Assembly: GCF_900215535.1 (NCBI RefSeq)
Contig: NZ_OCND01000009.1
Span: 62,001-126,000 of the forward strand
DNA: 64,000 nt
DNA from: Pseudoxanthomonas wuyuanensis
GTDB taxonomy: Bacteria; Pseudomonadota; Gammaproteobacteria; Xanthomonadales; Xanthomonadaceae
Direction of reading: 5' to 3'
In this document: positions 18,233 through 35,595 of the stretch, piece after piece
Layout of the letters: each line of letters begins with the position of its first letter
Numbering within the stretch: the stretch's first letter is position 1
Made by a program: the position numbers and the translations under genes
Notes under the pieces: model-generated
What the model saw: only the letters and a program-made list of their open reading frames with translations
The model's database searches: none
Told to the model about the DNA's origin: nothing

Positions 18233-19000
18233 TCAATAATCGCCGGTGCGCAGCGTGGTTTCGCCTTCGAACATGCCGTCGAGACCGAAACGGCGTTCGC
18301 TGATCCAGCCGCGGCCGTCGTGACCGATGGCGATCAGCGTGCTGGCGCGGGTGCCGTAGACGGCGTTGTCGATGAATGCGGGGGAGAGCAGGCGCTCGCG
18401 TTCCAGGCCGATGCCGGTATCGGGCAGGTCTTCATCAGCGGCCGGGGTCCGGTCGGCCAATGCCTGCCACAGCGGTGACACTTCGTCCGAATCGCTGGCG
18501 ACCCAGGCCGCCAGCCTGCGGCTCAGCCCCTGGGTCTTGGGCCACGGCTCGTCCAGATCCCCGTTCGACAGGCCATGGATGCCGGCAGCCACCGTCCGCT
18601 GGCGCGGGAATGGATGATTGCTGATGAAGCGGCAGCCGTCGGCATCGGCCAGCAGCAGATTGAAAGGCGCGTAGGCCGGGGCATGCGCCAGCAGATCGTT
18701 GGCGAATTCGTCGACGCTGCGCGCCTGCTGCAGGAACCCGCTGACCAGGCCGCCGCGCGATGGCGCCTGCGCCAGCGCCACCCGCGGGTCGCGGACGTTG
18801 GTGACCACCGCCAGCCGGCCGCGGTCGTCGATGCCGGCCCAGGTACCGCCTGACACCAGATCCCTGCCGGCCAGTAACGATGGCTCATCCGGCCAGCGGG
18901 ACAGCGCCGCGGTCGGCCGCTGATGGAATTCGTCGCGGTTGCCGGCCAGCAGCAATCGCCAGCGCGGATGGAAGTTCCAGGCCAGGGCTAGGACGCACAT
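18233..19000 (-). CDS. NRDE family protein (TANGO2-like)
   Basis: A 255-aa protein named for the motif LAGNRDEFHQRP, found here at residues 18-29 after the conserved N-terminal MCVLALAWNFHP. Other family features are SGGTWAGIDDRGRLAVVTNVRDP, GGLVSGFL, NLLLADADG and the C-terminal YGTRASTLIAI. Family members resemble N-terminal-nucleophile-fold proteins; human TANGO2 is implicated in haem or lipid handling, but the bacterial function is undefined. It is transcribed away from the dcw cluster, so its 5' side shares the 321-nt gap with the mraZ promoter. Confidence 0.9.
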   Translation of the reverse strand: MCVLALAWNFHPRWRLLLAGNRDEFHQRPTAALSRWPDEPSLLAGRDLVSGGTWAGIDDRGRLAVVTNVRDPRVALAQAPSRGGLVSGFLQQARSVDEFANDLLAHAPAYAPFNLLLADADGCRFISNHPFPRQRTVAAGIHGLSNGDLDEPWPKTQGLSRRLAAWVASDSDEVSPLWQALADRTPAADEDLPDTGIGLERERLLSPAFIDNAVYGTRASTLIAIGHDGRGWISERRFGLDGMFEGETTLRTGDY

Positions 19001-19209
19001 GGCCGGATTCTGGACCCGCAGGACGGCTACGGCCAGTGGTGCGTCGCAACATCGCTTGAGACGCGCGTGAAGCTCTGCTCACGTCGGTGAATCATCGTCG
19101 AATCTCAAAATTTGAGACTAAACAGTGACTTGTGGATAAGCCTTGAACAATTCTATGAAGTTGCCTGCAAGCCATTGATACACAAGACGATTTCTTTGCT
19201 ATCCGGCTG

Positions 19210-19237
19210 TTGACAACCCTGTGTGCGGTGCTAATGT
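19210..19237 (+). promoter_or_regulatory. Predicted sigma-70 promoter of the dcw cluster
   Basis: TTGACA at 19210-19215, then a 16-nt spacer and TAATGT at 19232-19237 preceded by TGC, an extended -10. It lies about 85 nt upstream of the mraZ GTG in an A/T-rich part of the 19001-19321 gap. The rest of that gap (19082-19200) is A/T-rich but holds nothing I can name. Confidence 0.6.
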
Positions 19238-19259
19238 GGGTATATGTGGGAAAACCGGG
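19237..19259 (+). promoter_or_regulatory. MraZ-type operator boxes
   Basis: TGGGT (19237-19241), 5 nt, TGGGA (19247-19251), about 5 nt, then an imperfect CGGGT (19256-19260). Direct TGGGN repeats at 10-nt period are the known MraZ binding pattern. The boxes overlap the -10 and start region of the promoter, consistent with autorepression of the dcw cluster. Confidence 0.65.
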
Positions 19260-19321
19260 TTTTAAGTGGTTTTTCGTGTTTCAATTAACGCCTACAAGCG
19301 AACGGGCAGGGTGCAACGGCA

Positions 19322-19768
19322 GTGTTTCAAGGCGAGACCGCCATCACAGTTGACGACAAGGGCCGGATGGCGGTGCCCACCGCCTACCGCGAACTGGTCG
19401 CGCGCGAGTGCGGCAACCGCCTGGTCATCGCCTACAACCCGTTCGAGTCCGGTTCGCTGTACCTGTACCCGGAAAAGGAATGGCAGCGGGTCCGCGACTC
19501 GGTCAATGCCCTGCCCAGCACCCGCGCCGCCCACCGTGCGCTGCAGCTGAAGCTGGTCGGTGCCGCCACGCCGGTCGAACTGGACGGCAACGGCCGCATC
19601 AGCATTCCCGCCAGCCATCGCAGCGCGGTGGGTATCGAAAAGAAAGCCGTGCTGCTGGGCATGGGCGACAAGTTCGAACTTTGGAGCGAGCAGGCGCACC
19701 ACGCGCAGATCCGCCAGACCATCGGCGACGACGATCTGAGCGACCACATGCTTGAGTTGAGATTGTGA
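19322..19768 (+). CDS. mraZ: Transcriptional regulator MraZ
   Basis: MraZ is the first gene of the dcw cluster and a DNA-binding repressor of it. The 148-aa protein has the two AbrB-like half-repeats of the family. The first begins [23 protein letters not shown] and the second [20 protein letters not shown]; both carry the DxxGRxxxP core. The start is the GTG at 19322, since the conserved MFxGxxxxxxDxKGR begins there. TGGG operator boxes lie 60-85 nt upstream. Its stop overlaps the rsmH start (GTGA). Confidence 0.95.
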
Positions 19769-20895
19769 GCAAGGGTGACGGCACGCGGCAGTCCGCGCAG
19801 GCCGCTCACCTTCCAGTGCAGCATTTGCCGGTGATGTACGCGCAGGTCATGGAAGGGCTGCAGGTGAAGGAAGACGGGACGTATCTGGACGGCACGTTCG
19901 GGCGTGGAGGGCACGCGCGCGGCGTGTTGCAACAACTGGGCCCGGGAGGCCGTCTGCTGCTGATGGACAAGGATCCTGAAGCGATCGCGCATGCCGAACT
20001 GACGTTCGCGGGCGATGACCGCGTCGTCATCCGGCGCGGCAGTTTTGCCGCCATCGCCGACTGGGACGCCGCCGCGCAGGGCCTGGACGGCGTGCTGCTG
20101 GATCTGGGCGTGTCGTCGCCGCAGTTGGACGTGGCCGAGCGCGGTTTCAGTTTCGGCAAGGACGGTCCGCTGGACATGCGCATGGATCCGGAAGCCGGCG
20201 AAAGCGCCGCCGACTGGCTGGCGCGCGCCGACGAGCGCGACATCGCCGATGTGCTGTGGACCTATGGCGAAGAGCGGATGAGCCGGCGCATTGCCCGCGC
20301 CATCGTTGCCCGCCGCGCGGAAACGCCGTTGACGCGTACGGCAGAGCTGGCCGATCTGATCGCCGCGGTGATGCCGCGCGGCAAGAAGCAGGACATCCAT
20401 CCGGCCACCCGCAGCTTCCAGGCCATCCGCATCCATATCAACCGCGAACTGGCGGATCTGGAAACCGGCCTGGACGGTGCGCTGGCGCGGCTCAAGCCGG
20501 GCGGGCGCCTGGCGGTGATCAGCTTCCACTCGCTGGAAGACCGCATCGTCAAGCGTTTCATCGCCCAGCACGCCAAGGCGCCGCCGGGCAATCGCCGGTT
20601 GCCGGCGCCGGATGCCTTCGTGCCGACCCTGCGCGCCATCGGCGATGCGCAGCGCGCGCTGCCCGAAGAAACCGCCGCCAACCCGCGCGCGCGCAGTGCG
20701 GTGCTGCGGGTGGCCGAAAAGCTGGGAATCGGGAGTCGGGAATCGGGAATCGAAGAAAGCAAGAGCGCAAGCAAAGGCTCGAGGCGGGCTGCCGGACGCG
20801 GCGCGGCGCGGCTTTCCCGATTCCCGACTCCCCGCTTTCAACAGCCGAATGGCTGGTCTTCCCGTTTCCCGGCGCTCCAGAGGAGCGCGCCATGA
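19765..20895 (+). CDS. rsmH: 16S rRNA (cytosine-1402-N4)-methyltransferase with a repeat-derived C-terminal tail
   Basis: RsmH methylates N4 of C1402 in 16S rRNA; rsmI, which adds the 2'-O-methyl of the same base, is also in this window. The SAM-binding motif [28 protein letters not shown] (as [13 protein letters not shown]), [14 protein letters not shown] and [16 protein letters not shown] are all present. The usual C-terminus ([15 protein letters not shown]) ends near residue 319. The last 57 or so residues of the 376 are encoded by a heptamer repeat element and by sequence up to ftsL, and resemble no family member. The GTG start overlaps the mraZ stop, and the TGA overlaps the ftsL ATG. 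Confidence 0.95.
20724..20839 (+). repeat. Inverted heptamer element in the 3' end of rsmH
   Basis: The left arm is four heptamers (GGGAATC, GGGAGTC, GGGAATC, GGGAATC) at 20724-20751. The right arm (20812-20839) reads CTTTCCC, GATTCCC, GACTCCC, then a decayed unit. The variant GGGAGTC in the second left unit is matched by GACTCCC in the pairing position on the right. The spacer is 60 nt. Confidence 0.85.
20872..20888 (+). promoter_or_regulatory. Triloop hairpin holding the ftsL ribosome binding site
   Basis: GCGCTCC (20872-20878), loop AGA, GGAGCGC (20882-20888), ending 3 nt before the ftsL ATG at 20892. The Shine-Dalgarno GGAG lies in the right arm and would be masked when the hairpin is closed. 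Ribosomes finishing rsmH would open it. Confidence 0.55.
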
Positions 20896-21155
20896 CCCGC
20901 GTGCTGCTGGCGGTGCTGATCGTCGCCACGGTCGCTTCGGCGATCGGGGTGATCTATGCGCGCCACCGCCACCGTTTGCTGTTCGTCGAGCTGTCGCGGC
21001 TGGAGCGCGATCGCGATGAGCTGAACATCGAGTTCGGCCGGTTGCAGTTGGAACAGGCGACCGTGGCCGAAAGCAACCGCATCGACCAGATTGCGCGTAC
21101 GCGCCTGGGCATGAAGTTCCCCGAAGCCGCGGATGTGGTGGTGGTGCGCCCATGA
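20892..21155 (+). CDS. ftsL: Cell division protein FtsL
   Basis: FtsL is a small bitopic divisome protein that forms a coiled coil with FtsB and activates FtsWI. The 87-aa product has a short cytoplasmic tip, one membrane segment (about residues 3-22, [20 protein letters not shown]) and a periplasmic heptad-rich stretch ([20 protein letters not shown]). The C-terminal [19 protein letters not shown] is typical of FtsL. Its ATG overlaps the rsmH stop and its TGA overlaps the ftsI ATG, so translation is coupled on both sides. Confidence 0.93.
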
Positions 21156-23032
21156 ACGCGTCCAGGAACATGCCGCCGCGCAATATGCCGCCGATCAAGA
21201 ACCGCAACCGCGCGCGCTTCAACCTGCGCGGACGGCTGGCACTGGTTGTCGGCGCACTGGGCCTGTGCTCGTTCAGCCTGGTCGGACGCGCCGCCTATGT
21301 GCAGCTGATCAACAACGATTTCTACCAGCGCCAGGGTGATGCGCGGTTCCTGCGCGAAATCCCGATTCCGACCTCGCGCGGCATGATCACCGACCGCAAC
21401 GGCGAGCCGGTGGCGGTGTCTTCGCCGGTCGAATCGGTGTGGGGCAATCCGCAGGAACTGCTCAAATTTCCCGAACGCCTGCCGGAACTGGCCCAGGCGC
21501 TGGATGTGCCGGCCGATCATCTGGTCAACCGGCTGTCGCAGCGCGCCGACAAGGAATTCATCTATCTCAAGCGCCGCATCAATCCGGACGAAGCGCGCCG
21601 CATTCTCGACCACCGCATCCCCGGGGTGTTCTCGCAGCGCGAATTCCGCCGCTTCTACCCGCAGGGCGAGGCGATGGCGCATGTGCTGGGCTTCACCAAC
21701 ATCGACGACCAGGGCCAGGAAGGGCTGGAACTGGCATTCGACGAATGGCTGCGCGGCACGCCCGGGGCCAAGAAGGTGATCCGCGACAACCGCGGGCGCA
21801 TCGTCGAGAACGTCGATCTGCTGCGCGCCGCGCAGCCGGGCAAGGATCTGACTCTCAGCATCGATCGCCGCATCCAGTACCTGGCCTACCGCGAACTCAA
21901 GCGCCAGCTGCTGGAACTTGGCGCCAGCAGCGGTTCTGCGGTGGTGCTGGACGTCGCCACCGGCGAAGTGCTGGCAATGGTCAACCTGCCGACCTACAAC
22001 CCCAACGCGGTCAACGCCGGCAAGCCCGATGCCCGCCGCAACCGCGCGGTCACCGATGTGGTGGAGCCGGGCTCGACGATGAAGCCGATCACCGTGGCCG
22101 CGGCGCTCAAGGCCGGGCTGGTGACGCCGGAAACCCGCATCGACGTCTCCCCCGGGCACATGGCGCTGGGCCGCTACACCATTCGCGATTTCCGCAACTA
22201 CGGCGTGCAGACCGTCACCGGCCTGATCACCAAGAGTTCCAACATCGGCGCGGCGAAGCTGGCGGCCAGGCTGCCCAACGACTACTTCTACGAAACCCTG
22301 CAGAGCTTCGGCTACGGGCAGAAGCCCGGCAGCGGCTTCCCCGGGGAGTCGGCCGGCGTGCTGATGCCGCCGGCGCGCTGGAACGGTCTGCAGAAGGCGA
22401 CCATGGCCTACGGCTACGGGCTGAGCGCGACGCCGCTGCAGATTGCGCAGGCGTACGCGGCGCTGGCCAATGGCGGCAAACTGATAGCGCCTACCTTCGT
22501 CAAGGGCCAGCGCAACGAGGCCCGGCAGGTGCTGGACCCGGCGCACGCGCAGCAAGTGCTGAAGATGATGCAGACGGTGACCGAACCCGGCGGCACCGCA
22601 ACGCAGGCGGCGATCCTGGGTTATCACGTTGCCGGCAAGAGCGGCACCGCGCGCAAGGCCAGCGGCGGCGGCTATTCGCGCCGTTACGTGTCGTTCTTCG
22701 CCGGCGTGGTGCCGGTGGAGAACCCGCGCTTCTCGATGGTGGTGGTGGTCAACGATCCCGAACCGGACCGTGGCTACTACGGCGGCGCGGTGTCGGCGCC
22801 AGTCTTCCACAACGTAATGGAAGGCGCGCTGCGGCTGATGGACGTGCCGCCGGACGATATCGAAACCTGGCTGGCCGCGCAGGCCGCAGGCGAGGCGAAA
22901 CTGGCCGCGCGCAGGCCGGCGGAAGCGCCGGCGCCGATCAGCATCGAGCAAGCCAACGATGCCGCCGCCTATGACGACACCATCCCCGCCGCAATGGCGG
23001 ACCCGGCGGCGGACTCCGGGGTGCTGCGATGA
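21152..23032 (+). CDS. ftsI: Peptidoglycan D,D-transpeptidase FtsI (PBP3)
   Basis: FtsI cross-links septal peptidoglycan with FtsW. The 626-aa protein has a cytoplasmic N-terminus, one membrane anchor (about residues 29-50), a PBP dimerisation domain starting with the [19 protein letters not shown] motif, and a transpeptidase domain. The catalytic motifs are STMK with the nucleophile Ser at 308, SSN at 362-364 and KSGT at 496-499. The C-terminal tail after about residue 570 is low-complexity and alanine-rich. ATGA overlaps join it to ftsL and murE. Confidence 0.96.
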
Positions 23033-24567
23033 GGCGGATGATGGCGCTGACCGAACTGCTGCCGGATGTCGACGCGCCGCGCGATATCGTCGTGCGCGGC
23101 CTGGTCCAGGACAGCCGCGCGATCGAGCCCGGCGACGCGTTCGTGGCGATCGCCGGTTTCGGCGCGCACGGGCTGGGCTTCGTCGACCAGGCCCGGCAGC
23201 GCGGCGCCAGCGCGATCCTGTTCGAACCGCCCGCGCCGGCCGGAATGGACGTTCCCAAGGACGCCATCGCGGTGCCGGATCTGCGCAAGCGCATGGGCGG
23301 GCTGGCGGACCGTTTCCACGCCTATCCGTCGCGCGAGATGAACATGGTTGCGGTCACCGGCACCAACGGCAAGACCTCCACCGTGCAGTTGCTGGCGCAG
23401 GCCTGGCATATCCGCGGCACCCGCTGCGGCAGCATCGGCACGCTGGGCGCGGGCATGTACGGCGAAGTGGTGCCGACCGGATTCACCACGCCGCTGGTGT
23501 TGCAGATGCATGCGCTGCTGGCGCAACTGCGCGATACCGGCGCCAAGGCGGTGGCGATGGAAGTCAGTTCGCACGCGCTGGACCAGGGCCGCGTGGATGG
23601 CGTGCATTTCGATGTCGCCGTATTCACCAATCTGACCCGCGACCATCTCGACTACCACGGCGACATGAGCAGCTACGGTGCGACCAAGGCCAGGCTGTTC
23701 GCCTGGCCCGGTCTGAAGTCGGCGGTGGTCAACCTGGACGACGACTACGGCCGCGAACTGTTCGCGTCGCTGCCGGCCACCGTGCAGGCGATCGGGGTCA
23801 GCTCGCGCGGCCAGGCCGAGGCGGCGTTGCGCGCCGATTCGCTGCGTCTGGACGCCAGCGGCATTTCCTTCGAACTGGACAGCGGCGGCGAATCCCACCC
23901 GGTGCAGTCGCGGCTGCTCGGCCGCTTCAACGTCGACAACCTGCTGGCGGTGGCCGGCGCGCTGAACGCATTGGGCGAAGCGCCGGCGGAAATCGCCCGC
24001 ACGCTGTCGCGCCTGCAGCCGATCCACGGGCGCATGAACCGCTTGGGCGGCGAGAGCGGCGACGGCGACCGCAATGGGCGGCCGCTGGTTGTCGTCGACT
24101 ATGCGCACACCCCGGATGCGCTGGATCAGGCGCTGTCCAGCCTGCGCGAACATGCGCACGGCCGCTTGATCTGCGTGTTCGGCTGCGGCGGCGAACGCGA
24201 TGCCGGCAAGCGGCCGCAGATGGCCGCCAGCGCCGAACGCTGGGCCGACCGGGTGATCGTCACCGACGACAATCCGCGCAGCGAAGACGGCGACCGCATC
24301 GTCGCCGACATCATGGCCGGCTTCGCCGAGCCGCAAAAGGCGGTGGTGCTGCGCGACCGCGCGCGCGCCATCGCCGACGCGATTGCCGAGGCGGGCAACG
24401 ACGACATCGTGCTGATTGCCGGCAAAGGCCATGAGCCCTATCAGGAAATCAATGGCGTGAAGCATCCGTTCGACGACACCGCAGTCGCGCGGCAGGCGCT
24501 GGATGCGCGCTTGCCGCGCAGCGATACGCAAGCGGTGCGGCCGCAGGATGCGGGGGAGCGGCCATGA
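23029..24567 (+). CDS. murE: UDP-N-acetylmuramoyl-L-alanyl-D-glutamate--2,6-diaminopimelate ligase
   Basis: MurE adds meso-diaminopimelate to the UDP-MurNAc dipeptide in the cytoplasm. The 512-aa protein has the Mur-ligase N-terminal domain, the ATP-binding GTNGKTS near residue 110, [13 protein letters not shown], the ARGxxGR-type Rossmann parts, and DNPR in [14 protein letters not shown]. The DNPR motif marks meso-DAP rather than L-lysine specificity. Start and stop lie in ATGA overlaps with ftsI and murF. Confidence 0.95.
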
Positions 24568-25964
24568 AGCGGCTGCCCCTTTCCCTGTTGGCGCACTGGG
24601 CCGGCGGCGACCTGCGCGGCGATGATGCGTTGATCGGCGCGATCGCCAACGATACCCGCGCGCTGCACCCCGGCAGCCTGTATGTGGCGCTGCGCGGCGA
24701 GCGTTTCGACGGCCATGATTTCGCCTACGACGCGGCCATGCGCGGTGCGGCGGCGGTGCTGGTGGAGCATGCGGTCAAGGTGGACCTGCCGCAGGTGATC
24801 GTGGCCGACAGCCAGCTGGCGCTGGCGCGCATCGCCGCGGGAATCCAGCAGGATCACGTCGAGAAGGTGGTCGCCATCACCGGCAGCAACGGCAAGACCA
24901 GCGTCAAGGCGATGGCGTTGTCGATCCTGCAGCGCGCCGGCGTCGCCTATTCCAATCCCGGCAATCGCAACAACGAGATCGGGCTGCCGTTGGCGGTAAT
25001 CGACGCGCCGGACGATGCCGACTTTTCGGTTTACGAAATGGGCGCGGGCAAACCCGGCGATATCGCCTATCTGACCGACATCGTCGCGCCCGAAGTGGCG
25101 CTGGTGAACAATGTCGCGCCGGCGCACCTGGAACGGATGGGCTCGCTGCTGGGCGTGGCCGAAACCAAGGGCGCCATCTATGAAGCGCTGCCGGCCGACG
25201 GCGTGGCGGTCATCAATGCCGACGACGCGTTCGCCGAATACTTCGCGCAGCGCGCTTCCGGCCGGCGGATCATCCGCTTCGGACTGGAATCCACGGCCGA
25301 TGTGAGCGCGCGCGATATCCGGACGAGCGGGCAGGGCTCGCGCTTTGTCCTGACCGCGCCGCCGGGCGAGGCCGACATAGACCTGCACCTGCCGGGGCGG
25401 CACAACGTGATGAACGCGCTGGCCGCGGCGGCGCTGGCGTTGGGCTGCGGCGTGTCCCTGCCGGTGATTGCGGCGGGATTGACCGCCGCGCAGCCGGTGG
25501 CCGGACGCCAGATCGCACGCAGGCTGGTCAATGGCGCTGTGCTTATCGACGACAGCTACAACGCCAATCCCGGTTCGCTGGCGGCGGCCATCGATACGCT
25601 GGCGGCAGAGCCGGGGCCGGCATGGCTGGTGCTGGGCGACATGCGCGAACTCGGTGCCGATGGCCAGGCGCTGCATGCGCAAGCCGGGCAGCGCGCCAAG
25701 GCCGCCGGCATCGCGCGCCTGTATGCGCTGGGACCGTTGAGCCAGGCCGCCTGCGCCGCATTCGGCGAAGGCGCGCGCCATTTCGACAACCACAAGGCGC
25801 TGGCCGAGGTCCTGCTTGCCGATCTTGCGATTGCCGGCGGCGGCGGCGGCGATGCCGCGCCGGCCAATCTGCGTGTGCTGGTCAAGGGATCGCGCGGCAG
25901 CGCGATGGACCGCATCGTGACCGCACTGCTGTCCGCTGGGGAGGACAAGACACATGCTGCTTGA
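24564..25964 (+). CDS. murF: UDP-N-acetylmuramoyl-tripeptide--D-alanyl-D-alanine ligase
   Basis: MurF adds the D-Ala-D-Ala dipeptide made by Ddl (also in this cluster) to UDP-MurNAc-tripeptide. The 466-aa protein shows the ATP-binding [13 protein letters not shown] near residue 108, [40 protein letters not shown] and [12 protein letters not shown]. These are diagnostic of MurF among Mur ligases. It overlaps murE by ATGA and mraY by 11 nt. Confidence 0.95.
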
Positions 25965-27039
25965 ACTGACGCGCTGGCTGCAGAGCCTGGAGAACTTCTT
26001 CGCCCTGTTCGGCTACCTGACCTTCCGCGGCATTCTGGCGGCGCTGACGGCGCTGTTCCTGTCGCTGTGGCTGGGGCCGGCGGTGATCCGCAAGCTGGCC
26101 CAGTTCAAGGGCGGCCAGCCGATTCGCCAGGACGGCCCGCAGACGCATTTCTCCAAGGCCGGCACCCCGACCATGGGCGGGGCGCTGATCCTGATCACGG
26201 TGCTACTGTCGGTGCTGCTGTGGGGCGACCTGCGCAACCGCTACGTGTGGCTGGTGCTGGCGGTGATGATCGCCTTCGGCGTGATCGGCTGGTACGACGA
26301 CTGGATCAAGATCGTCAGGCGCGACCCGAACGGGCTGAAATCGCGCTGGAAATACCTGCTGCAGTCGATCTTCGGCCTGGCGGCCGGCATCTTCCTGTGG
26401 CAGACCGCCGATGTGGCCGCGGCGACCACCTTCTATATCCCGCTGTTCAAGACCATCGCCCTGCCGCTGGCCGGGCTGGGCTTCATCGCCATCGCCTACT
26501 TCTGGATCGTCGGCTTTTCCAATGCGGTCAACCTGACCGACGGCCTGGATGGCCTGGCGATCATGCCGACGGTGCTGGTGGCCTGCGCGCTGGGCGTGTT
26601 CGCCTACGCGTCGGGCAATGCGGTGTTCTCCAGCTACCTGCAGATTCCGCAGGTGCCGGGCGCGGGCGAACTGGTGATCATCTGTGCGGCCATCGCCGGC
26701 GCCGGGCTGGGCTTTCTCTGGTTCAACACCTACCCGGCGATGGTGTTCATGGGCGATATCGGCGCGCTGGCGCTGGGCGCGGTGCTGGGCACCATTGCGG
26801 TGATCGTGCGGCAGGAACTGGTGCTGGTGATCATGGGCGGCGTGTTCGTCATCGAAACGCTGTCGGTGATGATCCAGGTCGCCTCATTCAAGCTCACCGG
26901 CAAGCGCGTGTTCCGGATGGCGCCGATCCATCACCACTTCGAGTTGAAGGGTTGGCCCGAGCCGCGGGTCATCGTCCGCTTCTGGATCATCTCGGTGATC
27001 CTGGTCCTGGTCGGCCTGGCGACGCTGAAGGTGCGCTGA
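25954..27039 (+). CDS. mraY: Phospho-N-acetylmuramoyl-pentapeptide transferase
   Basis: MraY transfers phospho-MurNAc-pentapeptide to undecaprenyl phosphate, giving lipid I. The 361-aa protein has about ten membrane segments and the family's conserved cytoplasmic loops: [27 protein letters not shown] (metal-binding Asp pair), [22 protein letters not shown] and the C-terminal [13 protein letters not shown]. ftsW starts in an ATGA overlap with its stop. In E. coli murD lies between these two genes; here it is absent. Confidence 0.97.
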
Positions 27040-28322
27040 TGAACGACTCCCTGCGCCAGGCGACGCGACTGGAGGCCATCGGTGGCCGCTACGACCCGTG
27101 GCTGCTGGGCGCGGCGCTGGCGCTGGCGTGCCTGGGCGTGGTGATGGTGGCGTCCAGCGCCATCATGATGGGCAGCACGCCGTTCCATTACCTCAGCCGG
27201 CATGTGGTGTTCCTCACCGTGGGCATCGGCCTGGCGGTATGGGCCATGCGCACCGAGCTGAAACTGGTCGAGCAGTACAACCGCCTGTTGCTGCTGGCCT
27301 GCTTCATATTGCTGTTGATGGTGTTCGTGCCCGGGCTGGGCGTCAGCGTCAAGGGCGCGCACCGCTGGATCAACCTGGGCGTGTCCAACTTCCAGGTCGT
27401 GGAAGTGGTGAAGGTGCTGTTCATCGTCTGGCTGGCCAGCTACCTGGTGCGCTTCCGCGACGAGGTCAATGCCACCTGGCCGGCGATGCTCAAGCCGCTG
27501 GGCGTGGCCGCCGGGCTGGTGGTGCTGCTGCTGCTGCAGCCGGATTTCGGCTCGGCGTCGCTGCTGCTGGCGATCACCGCCGGCATGCTGGTGCTGGGCG
27601 GGGTCAACATGCCGCGCATGTTCGGCCCGGTGCTGGTGGGGCTGCCGCTGCTGGCGGTGGTGGCCATCGCCGAACCCTACCGCGTCCGCCGGCTGACCTC
27701 GTTCTCGGACCCGTGGGCCGATCCGTTCGGCAGCGGCTACCAGCTGACCAATGCGCTGATGGCCATCGGCCGCGGCGAGTGGTTCGGCGTTGGCCTGGGC
27801 GGCTCGGTGCAGAAGCTCAACTATCTGCCCGAGGCGCATACCGATTTCATCCTGGCCGTGATCGGCGAGGAGCTGGGCTTTGCCGGCATCTGCCTGGTCA
27901 TCGGCCTGTATGCGCTGCTGGTAGGCCGCGCGCTGTGGGTGGGCCTGCGCTGCGTGGAGATGCGCCGCCACTTCGCCGGCTATTGCGCGTTCGGCATCGC
28001 CTTGTGGATCGGCCTGCAGAGCTTCGTCTCGATCGGCGTCAACCTGGGCCTGCTGCCGACCAAGGGCCTGACCCTGCCGCTGGTTTCCTCCGGCGGTTCC
28101 AGCGTGCTGATGACCTGCGCGGCGATGGGCCTGCTGCTGCGGGTGTCCTACGAACTGGAGCGCACCCAGCGCCAGGTGGCGTTGCGTGGCGACCTGATGC
28201 AAGCGGCGGCGGCACCGGAAACGGCGCCGGCGGAAGCGGCGGCGCCTGCGCCCGCACCGGCGGTGCGCGGCACCAGCCGCCTGCGTCCGCGCATCGAGCC
28301 CACGTTCGAGAGGATCGCATGA
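27039..28322 (+). CDS. ftsW: Septal peptidoglycan glycosyltransferase FtsW
   Basis: FtsW is the SEDS-family polymerase that works with FtsI. The 427-aa protein has about ten membrane segments, GAHRWINLG, the loop segment [40 protein letters not shown] and [10 protein letters not shown]. The C-terminal 45 residues are an alanine/proline-rich cytoplasmic tail. The ATG overlaps the mraY stop, and its own TGA overlaps the murG ATG. Confidence 0.96.
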
Positions 28323-29569
28323 CCGCGCGCACGCTCCAGCGGCCGATCATGATCCTTGCCGGCGGCACCGGCGGGCACATCTTCCCCGCGTTGGCGGTGG
28401 CCAGGGTGCTGCGCGCGCGCGATGTGCCGGTGGTCTGGCTGGGCGCCGACGGCGCAATGGAAACCCGGCTGGTGCCGCAGCACGGCATCGAACTGGACAC
28501 GCTGGCGATCTCCGGCCTGCGCGGCAAGGGCGCACTGGCATTGCTGGCCGCGCCGATCCGCGTGCTGCGCGCGATTCGCGCCGCCGGCTTCGTGCTGCGC
28601 CGGCGCCAGCCGCGCGCGGTGGTCAGCTTCGGCGGCTTTGCGGCCGGTCCAGGCGGCGTGGCTGCGCGGTTGATGCGCACGCCGCTGCTGGTCCATGAGC
28701 AGAACCGCGCACCCGGTTTCACCAACCGCATCCTGGCCAGGGTTGCGCGACGCGTCCTGACCGGCTTTCCCGGCGCGTTTCCGCAGCGCGAGGAATACGT
28801 GGGCAACCCGGTGCGCAACGAAATTGCGGCGCTGCCGGCTCCGCGGGAGCGGCTGACCGGACGCCAGGGCCCGCTGCGCCTGCTGGTGCTGGGGGGCAGC
28901 CAGGGCGCGCGCGCGCTGAACAATGCGCTGCCGCGGGCGATCGCGGCGTTGACCGGGAGCGCCGCATCCGTCGACATGCAGGTGCGCCACCAGTGCGGCG
29001 AAAAACTGCGCGAGGAAGCGATGCAGGCCTATGCCGATGCCGGCGTGGAGGCCAGTGTCGAAGCCTTCATCGCCGACATGGCGGCGGCCTATGCATGGGC
29101 GGATCTGGTGGTGTGCCGCGCCGGCGCATCGACGCTGGCGGAGCTGTGCGCGGCCGGCGTCGGCAGCGTGCTGGTGCCGTTTGCGCAGGCGGTCGATGAC
29201 CACCAGACCCGCAACGCCGAATTCCTGGTCGAACGCGGCGCCGCCGTGCTGCTGAAGCAGGACGAGCAACTGCCCGAACGCCTGCAGGCGGTACTGCGGG
29301 ATCTGGCCGGCGACAGCGGCCGGCGCCTGGCGATGGCCACCGCCGCGCGCGATCTGGCCAAGGTCGATGCGGCCGAACGCATCGCCGACATCATTCTTGA
29401 GGAAGCCGGGACCGGGGACCGGGGACCGGGGACCCGTACCGACCCTCACTTTTCGTCATCTTCCACATCGACTGTAGATCACCACCATTCCATGTCGCCT
29501 TGCCTTTCGCTTTTCCCCAGTCCCCGGTCCCCGGTCCCCGGTCCCGGCTCCGTAGGAGCCAAGCCATGA
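28319..29569 (+). CDS. murG: UDP-GlcNAc:lipid I N-acetylglucosaminyltransferase with a repeat-derived C-terminal tail
   Basis: MurG converts lipid I to lipid II on the inner face of the membrane. It shows [16 protein letters not shown] near the N-terminus, [40 protein letters not shown] and the UDP-GlcNAc-binding [13 protein letters not shown]. The family core ends near residue 363 ([12 protein letters not shown]). The remaining 53 residues of 416 are encoded by a heptamer element and its spacer (Gly/Arg-rich, then Ser/His-rich, then Pro-rich) and have no family counterpart. The extended frame still ends on the ATGA overlap with murC. Confidence 0.95.
29407..29546 (+). repeat. Inverted heptamer element in the 3' end of murG
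   Basis: The left arm is CGGGACC plus three GGGGACC (29407-29434). The right arm is AGTCCCC, two GGTCCCC and GGTCCCG (29519-29546). Of 28 arm positions 27 are complementary, including the variant outermost pair CGGGACC/GGTCCCG. The spacer is 84 nt of unrelated sequence. Confidence 0.92.
29546..29560 (+). promoter_or_regulatory. Triloop hairpin holding the murC ribosome binding site
   Basis: GGCTCC (29546-29551), loop GTA, GGAGCC (29555-29560), 5 nt before the murC ATG. GGAG lies in the right arm, as at ftsL. Confidence 0.55.
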
Positions 29570-31017
29570 TGGCCGCCGCGCGCGAACGCCGCCTGCAACA
29601 TACCGGCAATCTCGCCAGCGAGTTCCGCCGCGTCCATTTTGTCGGCATCGGCGGCTCGGGCATGAGCGGCATTGCCGAGGTGCTGTGCACGCTGGGCTAT
29701 GAGGTGTCCGGTTCGGACAATGCCGACAATGCCGCCACCCGCAGGCTCGCCGCGCTGGGCGCGCGGGTCATGCGCGGGCACAACGCCTCCAATGTGCTGG
29801 GCACCGATTGCGTGGTGGTGTCCAGCGCAATCAAGCCCGACAACCCGGAACTGATGGAAGCGCGCTCGCAGCGCATTCCTATCGTGCCGCGGGCGATGAT
29901 GCTGGCCGAACTGATGCGCTTCCGCCGCGGCATCGCCGTGGCCGGCACCCATGGCAAGACCACCACCACCAGCCTGACCGCGGCGGTGCTGAGCGAAGGC
30001 GGGCTGGATCCGACCTTCGTCATCGGCGGCCAGCTGCTGGCCGCTGGCGCCAACGCCAAACTCGGCGATGGCCAGTGGCTGGTCGCCGAAGCCGACGAAA
30101 GCGATGGCAGCTTCCTGCGCCTGAATCCGCTGATCTCCATCGTCACCAATATCGATGCCGATCATCTGGAGAACTACGGCAACGATTTCGAACGGGTCAA
30201 GGCCGCCTTCGCCGAATTCCTGCAGCGGTTGCCGTTCTACGGGCTGGCGGTGCTGTGCATCGACGATGCGGAAGTGGCCGCGCTGGCCGCGGAAACGCCG
30301 CGCCATGTGATGAGCTACGGCTTTGCCGAAAATGCCGACATCCGTGCCGAAGACGTGAACCAGGAAGGTTCCCGCATGCGCTTCACCCTGCGCCTGCCCG
30401 AGGACGTCAGCATCGCGGTCAGCCTGGCGCTGCCGGGGCGCCACAACGTGCAGAACGCGCTGGCGGCGGCGGCGGTGGGCTGGCAACTGGGCGTGTCGCC
30501 GGAAAACATCGCCGCGGCGCTGGAGAAGTTTGCCGGCATCGGCCGCCGCTTCAACGACCTTGGCGAAATTGTTACTGCCAGCGGTGCGCGCGTGCGGCTG
30601 GTGGACGACTACGGCCATCACCCCAACGAACTGGCCGCGGTCTTTGCCGCCGCCCGCGGCGGCTGGCCGGACAAGCGGTTGGTGGTGGCGTTCCAGCCGC
30701 ATCGCTACAGCCGCACCCGCGACCAGTTCGATGCATTCGCGGCGGTGCTGTCGGAAGTGGATGTGCTGGTGCTCAGCGAAGTCTATCCGGCCGGCGAAAC
30801 GCCGATTGCCGGCGCCGACGCCAAGTCGCTGGCGCGCGCCATCCGTGCACGCGGCCGCAACGAACCGGTCGTGGTCGGGCAGGTCGCGGATCTGGCGAGC
30901 GTGTTGCCGGATGTGCTGCGCGATGGCGATCTGCTGCTGTTGATGGGCGCCGGCGACATCGGCCATGTCGCCCAGCAGATCGCGGCGCACGGATTTGCAG
31001 GGAGCCGGACCGAATGA
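29566..31017 (+). CDS. murC: UDP-N-acetylmuramate--L-alanine ligase
   Basis: MurC attaches the first amino acid, L-alanine, to UDP-MurNAc. The 483-aa protein begins with the family motif [20 protein letters not shown], followed by the ATP-binding [10 protein letters not shown] near residue 125, [37 protein letters not shown] and [14 protein letters not shown]. The ATG at 29566 overlaps the murG stop. An open frame extends upstream to 29500, but that part is the repeat element. It overlaps ddl by ATGA. Confidence 0.96.
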
Positions 31018-31964
31018 GCCAGTACGCATTCCCGCCGCTGCGTGCGACCGACCCGGCTGCCTTCGGCCGCGTCGCGGTGTTGCTGGGCGGCACGTCCAGC
31101 GAAGCCGAGGTCTCGCGCGATTCCGGCCGCAACGTCCTGGAAGCGCTGCGCGCGCGCGGCGTCGATGCGACCGCGGTCGACGGCATTTCCGCGCTGGCCC
31201 AAGCGCTGGTGCAGCGCCGCTTCGACCGCGTGTTCAACATCCTGCACGGCCATAAGGGCGGCGGCGAAGACGGCATCGTGCAAGGGCTGATGGAAGCCTT
31301 CGGCATGCCCTATACCGGCTCGGACGTGCTGGGGTCGGCGCTGAGCATGGACAAGGTGCGCACCAAGCAGGTGTGGCTGTCGCTGGGCCTGCCGACGCCG
31401 CGCTACGTGCGCCTGCTGAGCGGGGAGGATGTGCATCAGGCCGCCGCCACGCTGGGCTTGCCGGTGATCGTCAAACCGGCCAACGAAGGCTCCAGCGTCG
31501 GCGTGACCCGCGTGTTCTCCGATGCCGACCTGGAAGCTGCGGTCGAACTGGCCGCACGCTACGACGGCGAACTGCTGATGGAGCAGCTGATCGAGGGCGA
31601 TGAACTCACCGTGGCCATCCTGGGCGATGTCGCGCTGCCGTCGATCCGCATCGTGCCCAAGGGACAGTGGTACGACTACCACGCCAAATACGTGGCCGAG
31701 GACACCCAGTACCTGTGTCCCGGCCTGCAGGGCCAGGACGAAGCCGAGATCGGCCGCATCGCGCTGGCCGCATTCCAGGCTGCCGGCTGCAAGGGCTGGG
31801 GCCGGGTGGACGTGATGCGCGACCGCGCCAGCGGAAACTTCTACCTGCTCGAAGTCAACACCGCGCCCGGCATGACCAGCCACTCGCTGGTGCCCAAATC
31901 CGCGCAGCAGGCCGGCATCGGTTTCGAGGAACTGTGCTGGCGGATTCTGGAGCAGACGCTATGA
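31014..31964 (+). CDS. ddl: D-alanine--D-alanine ligase
   Basis: Ddl makes the D-Ala-D-Ala dipeptide that MurF uses. The 316-aa ATP-grasp enzyme shows [19 protein letters not shown] at the N-terminus, [37 protein letters not shown] and the C-terminal metal-binding [23 protein letters not shown] (read in two parts). It corresponds in position to ddlB of E. coli. Its start overlaps murC by ATGA. Unlike most junctions in this cluster, it is separated from the next gene (ftsQ) by 154 nt, which are filled by a heptamer element. Confidence 0.96.
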
Positions 31965-31967
31965 GGC

Positions 31968-32099
31968 CGGGACCGGGGACCGGGGACCGGGGACCGGGGA
32001 GGCAGCCGCGCGGCGCCTCCTTGTTCGGGACATGCGGACGGTGTAGCCGTGCGCATGGCTTCGCTGTTCCCGGTCCCTGGTCCCCGGTCCCCGGTCCCG
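31968..32099 (+). repeat. Inverted heptamer element between ddl and ftsQ
   Basis: The left arm is CGGGACC plus three GGGGACC (31968-31995). The right arm is GGTCCCT, two GGTCCCC and GGTCCCG (32072-32099). All 28 positions can pair, one as a G-U. The 76-nt spacer shares no obvious sequence with the murG element, although the arms are almost identical. Confidence 0.92.
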
Positions 32100-32118
32100 T
32101 CGCTTGCGGAGCAAGCGA
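32100..32118 (+). promoter_or_regulatory. Triloop hairpin at the ftsQ start
   Basis: TCGCTTGC (32100-32107), loop GGA, GCAAGCGA (32111-32118), ending exactly at the ftsQ ATG (32119). The Shine-Dalgarno GGAG spans the loop and the first base of the right arm, so it is presented in the loop rather than fully masked. Confidence 0.55.
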
Positions 32119-32967
32119 ATGAACGCCGCCCTGCGCATCCTTGCCTGGCTGCTGGCGCTGGCGCTGGTCGCGCTGCCGGTGGTGGCCGTGGTCAACGGCT
32201 GGATTGGCGCCGAGCGCTGGCCGCTGACCAAGCTGCGCGTGCATGGCGAGTTCCAGCGCGTGGACCCGGTGCAGTTGCGCGCGGTGGTGCTGCCGTATGC
32301 GCAGCGCGGCTTTTTCGCGGTCAGCCTGCAGCAGGCGCAGGACGCCATCGAAAAGCTGCCATGGGTCGAGCGCGCGGACGTGCGCAAGCGCTGGCCGGAC
32401 GTGATGGAGATCAGCATCGTCGAGCACAAGCCGTTCGCGCGCTGGGGCGAAGACCGGCTGCTGTCCGAGCACGGCCGGCTGTTCCCGATTCCCAAGCAAC
32501 TGGACGGCCTGGCGCTGCCGCAGCTGGGCGGGCCGGATTCGCAGGTGCAGGAAGTGGTCGCGCTTTACAACGAATCGCGCCAGCTGTTCGCGCCGCTGGG
32601 CATCGAAGTGCGGAGCCTGCTGATGGATCGCCGCGGCAGCTGGTCGCTGTTGCTGGGCAACGGTACCGAAGTGGTGATCGGCCGCGCCGATGCGCGCCCG
32701 CGCCTGGCCCGTTTCGTACGCATGCTGCCGCATCTGCTGTCGCGCCAGCCGTCGCCGCTGGTGCGCGCCGATCTTCGCTACACCAACGGCTTTGCCCTGG
32801 TATGGGGCGAAAAGCCGGGAATGGGGAATCGGGAATCGGGAATGGGAGGAGCGACGGCCAACGCCGCGACCGCCGCCTCCCTTCCGGCCCACCCAACGGT
32901 CCCGGACTGGTCTCCCGCATTTTCCATTCCCGATTCCCGATTCCCTATTCCCGGCCTTAAAACATGA
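32119..32967 (+). CDS. ftsQ: Cell division protein FtsQ with a repeat-derived C-terminal tail
   Basis: FtsQ is the bitopic hub of the divisome that recruits FtsB/FtsL. The 282-aa protein has one membrane segment (about residues 5-28), a POTRA domain starting LTKLRVHGEFQRVDPVQLR, and the FtsQ beta domain ending DLRYTNGFALVWGE near residue 232. The remaining 50 residues (starting KPGMGNRESGMG and ending FPIPGLKT) are encoded by a heptamer element and do not resemble FtsQ. The ATG at 32119 was chosen; an in-frame TTG at 32104 lies inside the RBS hairpin. The TGA overlaps the ftsA ATG. Confidence 0.93.
   Translation: MNAALRILAWLLALALVALPVVAVVNGWIGAERWPLTKLRVHGEFQRVDPVQLRAVVLPYAQRGFFAVSLQQAQDAIEKLPWVERADVRKRWPDVMEISIVEHKPFARWGEDRLLSEHGRLFPIPKQLDGLALPQLGGPDSQVQEVVALYNESRQLFAPLGIEVRSLLMDRRGSWSLLLGNGTEVVIGRADARPRLARFVRMLPHLLSRQPSPLVRADLRYTNGFALVWGEKPGMGNRESGMGGATANAATAASLPAHPTVPDWSPAFSIPDSRFPIPGLKT
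32817..32952 (+). repeat. Inverted heptamer element in the 3' end of ftsQ
   Basis: The left arm is GGGAATG, GGGAATC, GGGAATC, GGGAATG (32817-32844). The right arm is CATTCCC, GATTCCC, GATTCCC, TATTCCC (32925-32952). Every position pairs, one as a G-U, and the GGGAATG variant on the left is matched by CATTCCC on the right. The spacer is 80 nt. Confidence 0.92.
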
Positions 32968-34199
32968 ATCGCAAAGGCGACAAATCGCTGATCGTCGGTC
33001 TCGACATCGGCACCTCCAAAGTCACCGCATTGGTGGGCGAGTATTCGCCCGGCAATCCCATCGAGGTGATCGGCATCGGCTCGCACGAATCGCGCGGGCT
33101 CAAGCGCGGCGTGGTGGTGGATATCGAATCCACCGTGCAGTCGATCCAGCGCGCGGTCGAGGAGGCCGAGCTGATGGCCGGCTGCGAGATCCGCTCGGTC
33201 TACGCATCGATTTCCGGCGCGCACGTGCAGTGCAAGAATTCTCCCGGCATCGTGCCCATCCGCGACGGCGAAGTGACCTGGGGCGATCTGGATCGGGTGC
33301 TGGAAGCGGCCAAGGCGGTGGCCATCCCGGCCGACCAGAAGATCCTGCACGCCATTCCGCGCGAGTACGTGCTGGACGATTCGCAGGAAGGCATCCGCAA
33401 TCCGGTCGGCATGACCGGCGTGCGCCTGGAAGTGCACGCGCACCTGGTGGTCTGCGCGCAGTCGGCCGCGGCCAACATCAGCAAGTGCGTGCAGCGCTGC
33501 GGCCTGCAGATCGACGATCTGATCCTGTCCTCGCTGGCCTCCAGCGTGGCGGTGCTGACCAGCGACGAGCGCGAACTGGGCGTGGTGCTGGTCGACATGG
33601 GCGCCGGCACCACCGATCTGGCGGTGTTCGTGCAGGGCGCGATCTGCCACACGGCTTCGTTGCCGATCGCCGGCGATCACGTCACCAACGACATCGCCCA
33701 CATGCTGCGCACGCCAACGCCGGAAGCCGAGCAGATCAAGGTCCGCTACGCCTGCGCGCTGGCGCAGCTGGCCACCGCCGAGGAAAGCATCCAGGTGCCC
33801 AGCGTGGGCGATCGTCCGCCGCGGCGCATGCCGCGCCATTCGCTGGCGCAGGCGGTGCAGGGGCGCTACGAGGAAATCTTCGAGATGGTGCAGGCCGAAC
33901 TGCGCCGCTCGGGCTTCGAAGAACTGGTCCGCGCCGGCATGGTGCTGACCGGCGGCGCTTCGAAGATGGAGGGCGTGGTCGAACTGGCCGAGGAAATGCT
34001 GCAGATGCCGGTGCGCGTGGGCATCCCGCAGCACGTACAGGGCCTGGGCGAGGTGGTGGGCAATCCGGTGCACGCCACCGGCGTGGGCCTGCTGCTGATG
34101 GGCAGCCAGATCGAACACCCGCGACGGCCGTCATTGCCCACCGGCAAGGCCGGCAGTTTCTTCAACAAGTTGAAGAACTGGTACCGCGGGGAGTTCTGA
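32964..34199 (+). CDS. ftsA: Cell division protein FtsA
   Basis: FtsA is the actin-like protein that tethers FtsZ to the membrane. The 411-aa protein has the phosphate-1 segment SLIVGLDIGTSKVTALVGE, the 1C domain (about residues 85-165), phosphate-2 VLVDMGAGTTDLAVF, the adenosine motif VLTGGASKMEGV, and a C-terminal amphipathic helix (SFFNKLKNWYRGEF) that serves as membrane target. No Shine-Dalgarno precedes the ATG; it overlaps the ftsQ stop and is probably translated by coupling. The 3' end is followed by a purine-rich heptamer island. Confidence 0.96.
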   Translation: MNRKGDKSLIVGLDIGTSKVTALVGEYSPGNPIEVIGIGSHESRGLKRGVVVDIESTVQSIQRAVEEAELMAGCEIRSVYASISGAHVQCKNSPGIVPIRDGEVTWGDLDRVLEAAKAVAIPADQKILHAIPREYVLDDSQEGIRNPVGMTGVRLEVHAHLVVCAQSAAANISKCVQRCGLQIDDLILSSLASSVAVLTSDERELGVVLVDMGAGTTDLAVFVQGAICHTASLPIAGDHVTNDIAHMLRTPTPEAEQIKVRYACALAQLATAEESIQVPSVGDRPPRRMPRHSLAQAVQGRYEEIFEMVQAELRRSGFEELVRAGMVLTGGASKMEGVVELAEEMLQMPVRVGIPQHVQGLGEVVGNPVHATGVGLLLMGSQIEHPRRPSLPTGKAGSFFNKLKNWYRGEF

Positions 34200-34200
34200 A

Positions 34201-34280
34201 GGAGCGAGAAGTGAGTGGAGAGGAGCGAGAAGTGAGGAGAAGCGTGCTTGCGAGAAGTTTTCCCACTTCTCACTCCTGGC
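34201..34280 (+). repeat. Short heptamer island between ftsA and ftsZ
   Basis: GGAGCGA-GAAGTGA occurs at 34201-34214 and again at 34222-34235. A complementary CACTTCTCACTCC follows at about 34264-34276, and the inner GAAGCGTGCTTGCGAG can also fold. The units are those of the island between ribB and ribH. It lies within the 160-nt ftsA-ftsZ gap. The ftsZ RBS (AGAGGA) is separate, near 34345. Confidence 0.75.
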
Positions 34281-34359
34281 AGGAAGAGGCGAAGGCGAAG
34301 GCGACAAGGCAACACCCGATTCACCCAGCAACACATAACTAAATAAGAGGACAACGGAC

Positions 34360-35595
34360 ATGGCACATTTCGAACTGGTTGAAAAAATGGCTCCGAATGC
34401 GGTGATCAAGGTCATCGGCGTCGGCGGCGGCGGCGGCAATGCGGTCGCGCACATGGTCAGCGGCAGCGTCGACGGGGTGGAATTCATCACCGCCAACACC
34501 GATGCGCAGGCGATCAAGAACTGCGGCGCCAAGTTGCAGCTGCAGCTGGGCGGCAACGTCACCAAGGGCCTGGGCGCGGGCGCCAACCCGGAAGTCGGCC
34601 GGCAGGCGGCGCTGGAAGATCGCGAGCGCATCATCGAGGCGCTGGAAGGCGCCGACATGGTGTTCATCACCGCCGGCATGGGCGGCGGCACCGGCACCGG
34701 CGCCGCGCCGGTGGTCGCGCAGCTGGCCAAGGAAATGGGCATCCTGACCGTGGCCGTGGTCACCAAGCCGTTCCCGTTCGAGGGCCGCCGGCGCATGCAG
34801 GTGGCGCTGAAGGGCATCGAGGAGCTGTCGCACCACTGCGATTCGCTGATCACCATTCCCAACGAGAAGCTGATCACGGTGCTGGGCCGCAACGCGACGA
34901 TGATCCAGGCGTTCCGCGCCGCCAACGACGTGCTGCTGGGAGCGGTGCAGGGCATTGCCGATCTGATCGTGCGCCCGGGCCTGATCAACGTCGACTTTGC
35001 CGACGTGCGCACGGTGATGAGCGAAATGGGTCTGGCGATGATGGGCACCGGTTCGGCACGCGGCGACGACCGCGCGCAGGCCGCGGCCGAGAGCGCCATC
35101 CAGAATCCGCTGCTGGACGACGTCAACCTGTCCGGCGCCAACGGCATCCTGGTCAACATCACCGCCGGCCCCGACTTCACGATGGCCGAGTTCGACGAAG
35201 TGGGCCGCACCATCGAAGGCTTCGCTTCCGAGGACGCCACCGTGGTGCTGGGCACCGTGCTGGATCCGGACATGCAGGACGAGGTGCGCGTGACCGTGGT
35301 CGCGACCGGCCTGAACCGTGCCGCCGTGCGCCAGCCGGTGCGCGGCGATCTGGGCGGCAGCCAGCGCGAGCCGATGCGTGCGCCGATCAAGCTGGTCCGC
35401 GACGGCACCACCGGCATGCCCATCCACGACGCCGTCGCCGGCATGGACCCGGTGGCCGATGCGGTCGGTTCGCTGGGATTGCGCCGCGGCGGCGGTTCCG
35501 TGGCGGCCAGCGCACCGGCCTCGGCGCCGGCTGCGGCGGAACTGCCCAGCGACTACCTGGACATCCCGGCGTTCCTGCGTCGCCAGGCCGACTGA
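34360..35595 (+). CDS. ftsZ: Cell division protein FtsZ
   Basis: FtsZ is the tubulin-like GTPase that forms the division ring. The 411-aa protein has [17 protein letters not shown] at the N-terminus, the tubulin signature [13 protein letters not shown] at about residues 108-120, [11 protein letters not shown] with the synergy-loop region, a proline/alanine-rich linker from about 320, and the conserved C-terminal peptide [12 protein letters not shown] that binds FtsA and ZipA. It ends the core dcw genes and is followed by a strong terminator before lpxC. Confidence 0.97.

Follow-up and report, generated by a model that had tools for sequence, protein, structure and literature searches.

Dispersed heptamer inverted repeats at dcw gene junctions of Pseudoxanthomonas wuyuanensis, probably filtered by the need for unbroken translation

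The stretch of DNA analyzed here (the window: 64,000 nucleotides [nt] of Pseudoxanthomonas wuyuanensis, contig NZ_OCND01000009.1, positions 62,001 to 126,000) carries the division and cell wall (dcw) gene cluster, in which four inverted repeats built of tandem heptamers lie at the junctions rsmH>ftsL, murG>murC, ddl>ftsQ, and ftsQ>ftsA. A first-pass annotation had reported these four elements, and an inverted-repeat search confirmed them at the same positions, with units GGGGACC (equivalently, GGGACCG) in two and GGGAATC in the other two, as claimed. Complementarity is 100% over 30 nt at murG>murC and over 19 nt at rsmH>ftsL, 97% over 31 nt at ddl>ftsQ, and 86% over 28 nt plus 91% over 23 nt at ftsQ>ftsA. 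Among the surrounding genes, rsmH, ftsL, murE, murF, murG, murC, ddl, and ftsA score above the NCBIfam cutoffs, and ftsI and ftsQ match their own families below the curated cutoffs. Comparison with related genomes suggests that these repeats are probably copies of a dispersed inverted-repeat element, belonging to a heptamer class published from Xanthomonas, whose placement is filtered by the need for unbroken translation. The features are as follows (positions in the window).

20724..20839, plus strand: element 1 (rsmH>ftsL); G-arm at 20724-20751 with four units, C-arm at 20812-20832 with three scored units; 20839 is the end given in the first-pass annotation
19765..20895, plus strand: rsmH open reading frame (ORF); residues 19-319 match TIGR00006, and the remainder is a read-through tail over element 1
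20872..20888, plus strand: hairpin over the ftsL ribosome-binding site, GCGCTCC-AGA-GGAGCGC
29407..29546, plus strand: element 2 (murG>murC); G-arm at 29408-29435, C-arm at 29511-29545; GGGGACC class
28319..29569, plus strand: murG ORF with a read-through tail over element 2; its stop codon overlaps the murC ATG (29566)
29546..29560, plus strand: hairpin over the murC ribosome-binding site, GGCTCC-GTA-GGAGCC
31968..32099, plus strand: element 3 (ddl>ftsQ); G-arm at 31969-32003, C-arm at 32071-32098; GGGGACC class
31961..32122, plus strand: bridging mini-ORF of 53 codons, spanning element 3 from the ddl stop codon to the ftsQ start codon
32100..32118, plus strand: hairpin over the ftsQ ribosome-binding site, TCGCTTGC-GGA-GCAAGCGA
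32817..32952, plus strand: element 4 (ftsQ>ftsA); G-arm at 32817-32844, C-arm at 32925-32952; GGGAATC class
32119..32967, plus strand: ftsQ ORF with a read-through tail over element 4; its stop codon overlaps the ftsA ATG (32964)

The elements had been described as sitting just before a start codon, which is too simple: three are contained in the C-terminal end of the upstream ORF and the fourth in the bridging mini-ORF. The rsmH stop codon (20893-20895) overlaps the ftsL ATG (20892), and the mini-ORF is joined to both neighbors by ATGA overlaps, its ATG with the ddl stop codon (31962-31964) and its stop codon with the ftsQ ATG (32119-32121).

Heptamer arrays of this kind are widespread in the family. 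Period-7 GGGA arrays of at least three units number 233 in 85 loci (excluding the window; five are overlapping copies of one place in the own genome), whereas ten control cores or periods yield 0 to 28, so the arrays greatly exceed chance. The own genome contains 162 + 120 overlapping three-unit matches versus 5 + 3 for the reversed pattern. Among 119 genomes of the family (Lysobacteraceae/Xanthomonadaceae), 95 contain matches. Totals per genome range between 0 and 1019 and are 282, 487, 6, 240, and 60 in five genomes of the own genus; the reversed pattern is close to zero in most of the 119, with exceptions (62 + 123 in G038). When 81 dcw loci were compared (80 relatives plus the window), 34 carried at least one array by hand count, two of these only beyond ftsZ. 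A junction counted as occupied if it had one or more arrays with a minimum of three scored units; the occupied junctions are rsmH>ftsL, murF>mraY, murG>murC, murC>ddl, ddl>ftsQ, ftsQ>ftsA, and ftsA>ftsZ.

That all four elements point the same way, as the first-pass annotation stressed, is an empty statement because an inverted repeat reads identically on both strands. The order of the arrays is informative instead: among neighboring arrays within 300 bp in the 81 loci, a G array is followed by a C array in 88 cases, and the C..C, G..G, and C..G orders account for 13, 3, and 0. The reported location at gene junctions held for 20 of 22 two-arm groups examined in the own genome, which lie between codirectional genes; one other lies between divergent genes and one in frame within purL. 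By source, the codirectional share is 3/3 in a 400-kb stretch, 13/15 in regions picked because they contain arrays, and 4/4 in the window. Outside dcw, some own-genome pairs (e.g., L198:7083-7230 and L202:2485-2637) span from a few bases after a stop codon to a few bases before the next start codon, as though cut to fit the junction.

Arrays most often have four units, both in the window and in three of four genome stretches. This, together with the published preference for four units and the quadruplexes that GGGAATC oligonucleotides form in vitro (PMC4692102), speaks for a G-quadruplex element, in which four GGG tracts on one strand would be the functional unit, for instance as a polymerase roadblock, a possibility discussed for the class in that paper. 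We regard that explanation as very improbable: it predicts neither the inverted pairing nor the arm class agreement, inner box, and frame described below, and the authors state that no role in gene regulation could be identified (PMC4692102).

The arms share a composite half-site, often with GCC on the outside, followed inward by roughly four GGGANNN units and an A-rich box close to GNRARAGC, all mirrored on the opposite arm. Arrays were cut off at their last exact GGGA unit. The next base in 107 distinct pairs is G in 91% of left arms and in 94% of right arms (read inward), and an A-rich box ending in GC follows that G in equal register on both arms. Scored as R-A-R-A-G-C at positions 3-8 with at least 5 of 6 matches, the inner box is present in 39% of 204 paired half-sites versus 2.7% in flank shuffles, in 20% of 138 half-sites of unpaired arrays, and, at a 30-nt offset, in 0.9% over all 342 half-sites. 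The inner-flank hexamers AACAGC, AAAAGC, and AAGAGC occur in 32, 35, and 30 of 214 cases, compared with 1.8, 2.4, and 2.9 in shuffles, and an exact GCC flanks the outer side of 95 of 204 half-sites in pairs and of 59 of 138 in unpaired arrays. The spacer, which had been called unrelated sequence, thus has common edges.

The box bears on a serious rival, namely, simple-repeat turnover with no mobile element at all. Slippage would generate the heptamers, fold-back strand switching would template the second arm, and in coding or coupled places the reading frame would filter the length. Own-genome arrays that reach 17 scored units favor it, as does the fact that arms match in class and not in unit order; long inverted repeats might moreover be permitted, as no SbcC passed the TIGR00618 cutoff in any of the 119 family genomes (best score, 36.7 bits; the model is strict, and 1 of 14 controls passes). 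Turnover does not account for a box that lies at one set position within each arm, and we consider it possible rather than probable. Loss of SbcCD was also tried as the cause of copy number differences and rejected: with SbcC at 0/119 in high- and low-copy-number genomes alike, the loss could only be permissive, and these genomes may tolerate long inverted repeats for lack of SbcC.

Units were assigned to classes by heptamer positions 5-6 (AT, TT, CC, CT, or GT). In 101 of 107 elements, the two arms belong to one class. When right arms were exchanged at random between species at a given junction, agreement averaged 45.7 elements and never exceeded 62 in 5,000 permutations. The same junction holds different classes in different species; on the protein tree, class switches summed over junctions number at least 41 for left arms and at least 42 for right arms, in species that are not independent and between which exchange is possible. 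Agreement in the genome stretches is 3/3 in the own genome, 5/6 in X. hortorum, and 1/2 in X. phaseoli. Element 1 is one of the six discordant cases by majority class, with AT on the left and GT on the right. In the own genome, L215:2482-2798 (C23) contains a G array of 16 units in which GGGACTC gives way to GGGGACC, opposite a C array of five units, mostly GGGACTC; this element may have been caught while switching class.

Below the level of class, the agreement ends. The first-pass annotation had reported that variant units on one arm are matched by complementary variants on the other and had inferred that the arms are homogenized. Variant matching is visible by eye in the window, but as a family property it was rejected: an arm pairs with its own partner and with the arm of another element of the same class equally well (0.895 each; 94 of 200 swaps reach the observed value). 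Likeness of the two arms is supported for unit class and not for individual variants. Of the mismatches between arms, 21 are G·U, 36 are A·C, and 196 are of other kinds (129 of these G-G and C-C); selection on an mRNA stem, sought as an excess of G·U on the mRNA strand, was not found.

These results weigh on a second rival, a selected regulatory hairpin whose stem would be kept for a role in mRNA (an RNase III site, a stabilizer, or a ribosome-gated switch) that sets the relative output of the division genes. The class agreement persists despite the many left-arm switches on the tree, and predicted folding is strong for elements 2 and 3 (z = -6.7 and -10.7), both points in favor of such a hairpin. 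The mismatches lack the G·U bias expected of an RNA stem, pairing beyond class is no better than between different elements of one class, and many relatives have no element at these junctions. There is no sign in the sequences that the conserved thing is a sense-strand RNA stem. We therefore judge a regulatory hairpin improbable, and the earlier suggestion that the elements set RNA stability or protein output is unsupported.

Evidence for a dispersed element also comes from purL. The own genome carries a complete element in frame within this gene (G000:C9:24475-28671; L197:2476-6675). A search matched 38 genomes, and 30 loci were examined (29 relatives plus the own). At this position (site 2), 11 of the 30 loci are filled and 19 are empty, and all 30 lengths are multiples of three. 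The fills measure 96 to 432 nt, compared with uniform empty sites of 24-36 nt, a contrast that slippage and fold-back copying do not explain. By eye, the fills comprise at least four unit classes (GGGACT, GGGAAT, GGGACC, and GTGATT), the arms of a given fill being mostly of one class. The presence of the same element in frame within a coding gene also counts against a regulatory hairpin. Since the element also occurs in frame inside purL, it is not confined to junctions, and the junctions look like places where it survives and not like a required target. Together with the filled and empty dcw junctions and the composite half-site, purL bears out the earlier proposal of one dispersed element type; judged from these alignments, some species carry copies at short sites that are empty in others. 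At the other purL site, 19 loci are empty, 5 hold heptamer arrays, 5 a CCCTTCTCCC...GGGAGAGGG repeat, and 1 a further insert. Two PurL sites thus tolerate in-frame repeat inserts, and the CCCTTCTCCC...GGGAGAGGG repeat is unrelated to the heptamer elements.

Reading frames across the dcw junctions were scored in 95 loci (the 81 plus 14 nonduplicate loci of the same genus), with a strict rule that demands a -1 stop/start overlap (NTGA); any in-frame ATG, GTG, or TTG was accepted as a start codon. The murF>mraY junction was excluded, bar one locus, because protein alignments extend across it. Of the 109 occupied coupled junctions, 74 show both arms and 35 a single arm, and 108 are crossed by an open frame that meets the strict rule. 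The upstream ORF accounts for 73 of these, bridging ORFs for 30 (27 that begin one base before the upstream stop codon and 3 that begin eight bases before it), and downstream ORFs whose start lies in the upstream stop codon for 5. A looser overlap rule gave identical counts. The uncoupled ftsA>ftsZ junction is spanned in 1 of 30 cases. Empty junctions are mostly coupled as well, in 61/61 (rsmH), 55/66 (murG), 82/83 (murC), 59/62 (ddl), and 67/69 (ftsQ) cases, versus 1/60 for ftsA>ftsZ.

The inserts keep to one phase at many different lengths. Distinct lengths in the main phase number 15, 10, 4, 13, and 8 at the rsmH, murG, murC, ddl, and ftsQ junctions, and six lengths are off phase, five at murG, where mini-ORFs bridge, and one at ddl; those at ftsA>ftsZ are distributed 10/9/5 over the three phases. 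In the 14 loci added later, after the pattern had been seen, all 9 occupied rsmH, ddl, ftsQ, and murG read-through cases are in phase, and one further murG case has a mini-ORF. Where translation must be unbroken, in purL and at the overlapping dcw junctions, the lengths of the observed copies keep a frame open across the element to the next gene. These open frames of constrained phase, like the prior publication of the element class, had been overlooked by the first-pass annotation. They also count against the regulatory hairpin, as translating ribosomes would melt its stem.

The encoded murG tail itself seems free to vary. Across 13 murG tails that share one length, the three codon positions show 44/41/47 variable sites of 59, compared with 28/18/88 of 120 in the murG body; with variation even over codon positions, a conserved tail peptide was rejected, for murG only. 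Replacement of the whole ddl>ftsQ junction by one from a distant species was also considered, and flank identities gave no clear sign of it: the highest combined identity is to an empty locus of the same genus (L178), and a filled locus of the same genus (L180) ranks third, with the highest identity at the ddl 3' end.

At three junctions, a hairpin is predicted over the ribosome-binding site of the next gene. The mean longest perfect stem before the start codon is 7.1, 6.3, and 6.1 pairs at occupied rsmH>ftsL, murG>murC, and ddl>ftsQ junctions, versus 3.2, 3.1, and 3.5 at empty ones and 3.1 to 3.5 in shuffles. For murG>murC, the scan took the start as one base before the murG stop codon, so that without read-through the stretch scanned is not the murC leader. 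A hairpin with a score of at least 4 is present at 66 of 70 occupied loci, in 62 of the 66 with GGAG, GAGG, or AGGA inside. Three stem pairs covary at ddl>ftsQ (paired in 16, 15, and 16 of 20 rows; 9.9, 8.6, and 10.2 expected) and two at rsmH (14 and 12 of 23; 8.4 and 8.7 expected), and the remaining pairs are close to expectation. Within the hairpins, G·U accounts for 7 mismatches, A·C for 1, and other combinations for 13; on fixed axes that include outer positions, G·U/A·C counts are 8/15 at ddl, 5/3 at murG, and 11/2 at rsmH. In the minimum-energy fold of the whole murG>murC element, the left half of the murC hairpin pairs with the G-arm instead.

The occurrence of these hairpins at occupied and not at empty junctions is a further point in favor of a regulatory hairpin. 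They also fit tight coupling, and we infer that a ribosome arriving from upstream would open them. More tentatively, bacteria could have made the inserted dcw copies into a frame-gated coupling device, with its own open frame, a stem that opens only to a translating ribosome, and, at three of the junctions, a terminal ribosome-binding site that is locked. The cell would then make FtsL, MurC, and FtsQ in strict dependence on translation of the preceding gene, and selection would keep frame and hairpin while the peptide and the heptamer words drift. We hold this possible rather than probable.

The preferred reading of a dispersed element filtered by translation implies the following course. The element would arrive by some mobilization or copying process, and purifying selection would remove copies that uncouple the translation of adjacent essential genes. 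In Escherichia coli and Haloferax, a stop-to-start gap of about 20 nt nearly abolishes reinitiation, according to the part of the study available here (PMC10666635), hence the need for an unbroken frame. At rsmH>ftsL, murG>murC, and ddl>ftsQ, a ribosome traversing the element would open the binding-site hairpin and reinitiate at the overlap, and translational coupling would be preserved although the insert is some 60 to 240 nt long.

Several observations weigh against this reading. No mobilizing enzyme was identified in a search of the 119 family genomes that covered Y1_Tnp only. Y1_Tnp is present in 27 of 33 genomes with at least 100 array matches and in 56 of 86 others (counted by hand), and the genome with 1,019 matches (G025) has none, whereas one with 6 matches (G068) has 11. 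An origin from repetitive extragenic palindromes (REPs) and their associated RAYT transposases was therefore rejected, the presence and number of Y1 transposases being unlinked to copy number. No target site duplication was recognized on reading the purL sites, although this was not a systematic test, and the distribution may reflect repeated gain, loss, or exchange. Because array ends were set by exact GGGA matches, the leading G of the box and the A at its position 4 may be remnants of a decayed extra heptamer; such decay fails to explain the inner-flank hexamers.

Other such points concern the frame. The ddl>ftsQ junction of L052 is the sole occupied coupled junction without a spanning frame, and ftsA>ftsZ is an imperfect control because its gaps are longer, up to 367 nt. 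Since a second frame is also open at most rsmH, ddl, and ftsQ junctions (23/25, 18/23, and 15/19), openness by itself is weak and the argument rests on phase; at murG, a second frame is open in 6/22 cases, and at ftsA>ftsZ, the counts are 2, 0, and 1 of 27. Species are nonindependent observations, and we infer the passage of ribosomes from open frames. The ftsQ>ftsA junction has no hairpin (mean stem, 2.4). Finally, in own-genome neighborhoods outside dcw, a gene-calling model trained on dcw genes ended the upstream gene before the element in 13 of 13 codirectional pairs (mini-ORFs aside); the frame rule therefore belongs to coupled or coding places and not to the element everywhere.

The Xanthomonas heptamer repeats were published in 2015 with no function assigned. 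If the frame rule is confirmed, an insert in an essential coupled operon must be translatable in the right phase, a requirement that decides where a repeat can live. The family would then offer a natural experiment on translational coupling, with many species, many insert lengths, one rule, and an uncoupled control junction in the same operon. It would also show how repeats extend essential proteins such as MurG, FtsQ, and RsmH by long tails free of constraint, and the class agreement of the arms poses a separate question about the copying or homogenizing of inverted repeats.

Other repeats were noticed in the window. At 4418-4705, a CGAGAAA heptamer array stands opposite TCCCGAG and CTCACTC arrays some 100-200 nt away, and the whole appears to be a longer, more degenerate relative of the heptamer elements. 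Tandem arrays lie at 16552-16856 (63 bp x 4.8), 17312-17899 (138 bp x 4.2; 96% matches), and 57522-57993 (72 bp x 6.5). An Rfam search of 18000-36000 gave no match at the gathering score; a weak match to the small RNA Xoo8, far under that score, lies 3' of ftsZ at 35830-36000, where the edge of the searched stretch cuts it off.

Among known systems, the closest are the G-quadruplex heptamer repeats of Xanthomonas (Rehm 2015; PMC4692102), with GGGAATC units and many inverted pairs; 7-11% of the repeats counted in that paper are intragenic or overlapping. That definition requires at least two tandem units and at least one GGGAATC. Elements 1 and 4 fall within it, whereas elements 2 and 3 lack GGGAATC and fit only a wider GGGANNN definition; GGGACC begins no word in the text of PMC4692102. 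The convergent close pairs described for the class are seen here as well, in the array order given above, and quadruplex formation was published for other oligonucleotides of the class. In the part of that paper available, there is no arm-class agreement, inner box, read-through tail, bridging ORF, or in-frame insertion into a conserved gene, so that the composite half-site, class agreement, frame rule, and in-frame purL copies go beyond it; searches of an open-access library did not turn up the frame rule, arm-class agreement, or inner box in print.

Rickettsia palindromic elements, dispersed palindromes of about 150 bp, are described in the available part of PMC10969869 as lying in frame within protein-coding genes, and the filled and empty orthologues at purL site 2 resemble them in this respect. 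Each of those elements is said there to encode a conserved peptide, whereas the murG tail has no codon-position constraint; furthermore, the arms here are tandem heptamers, and copies also bridge overlapping genes. The heptamer element thus works like a Rickettsia palindromic element but is not classed as one. REPs and bacterial interspersed mosaic elements are likewise dispersed inverted repeats that lie largely outside genes, as here. REPs, however, are palindromes of 20-40 bp with one superfamily tagged by GTAG, as far as the consulted part of PMC3733652 goes, whereas the position profile here contains no GTAG and the outer edge is most often GCC. Miniature inverted-repeat transposable elements have terminal inverted repeats that their copies share; the composite half-site provides these on both arms, with a unit class that varies between copies. 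Finally, coupled gene pairs are characterized, in the available parts of PMC12548453 and PMC10666635, by ATGA-type overlaps and by structured ribosome-binding sites that the upstream ribosome opens. The stop/start overlap is found at all but one of the occupied coupled junctions; the difference from usual coupling is that here the overlap is retained, despite the insert between the conserved genes, by way of an open frame through the insert.

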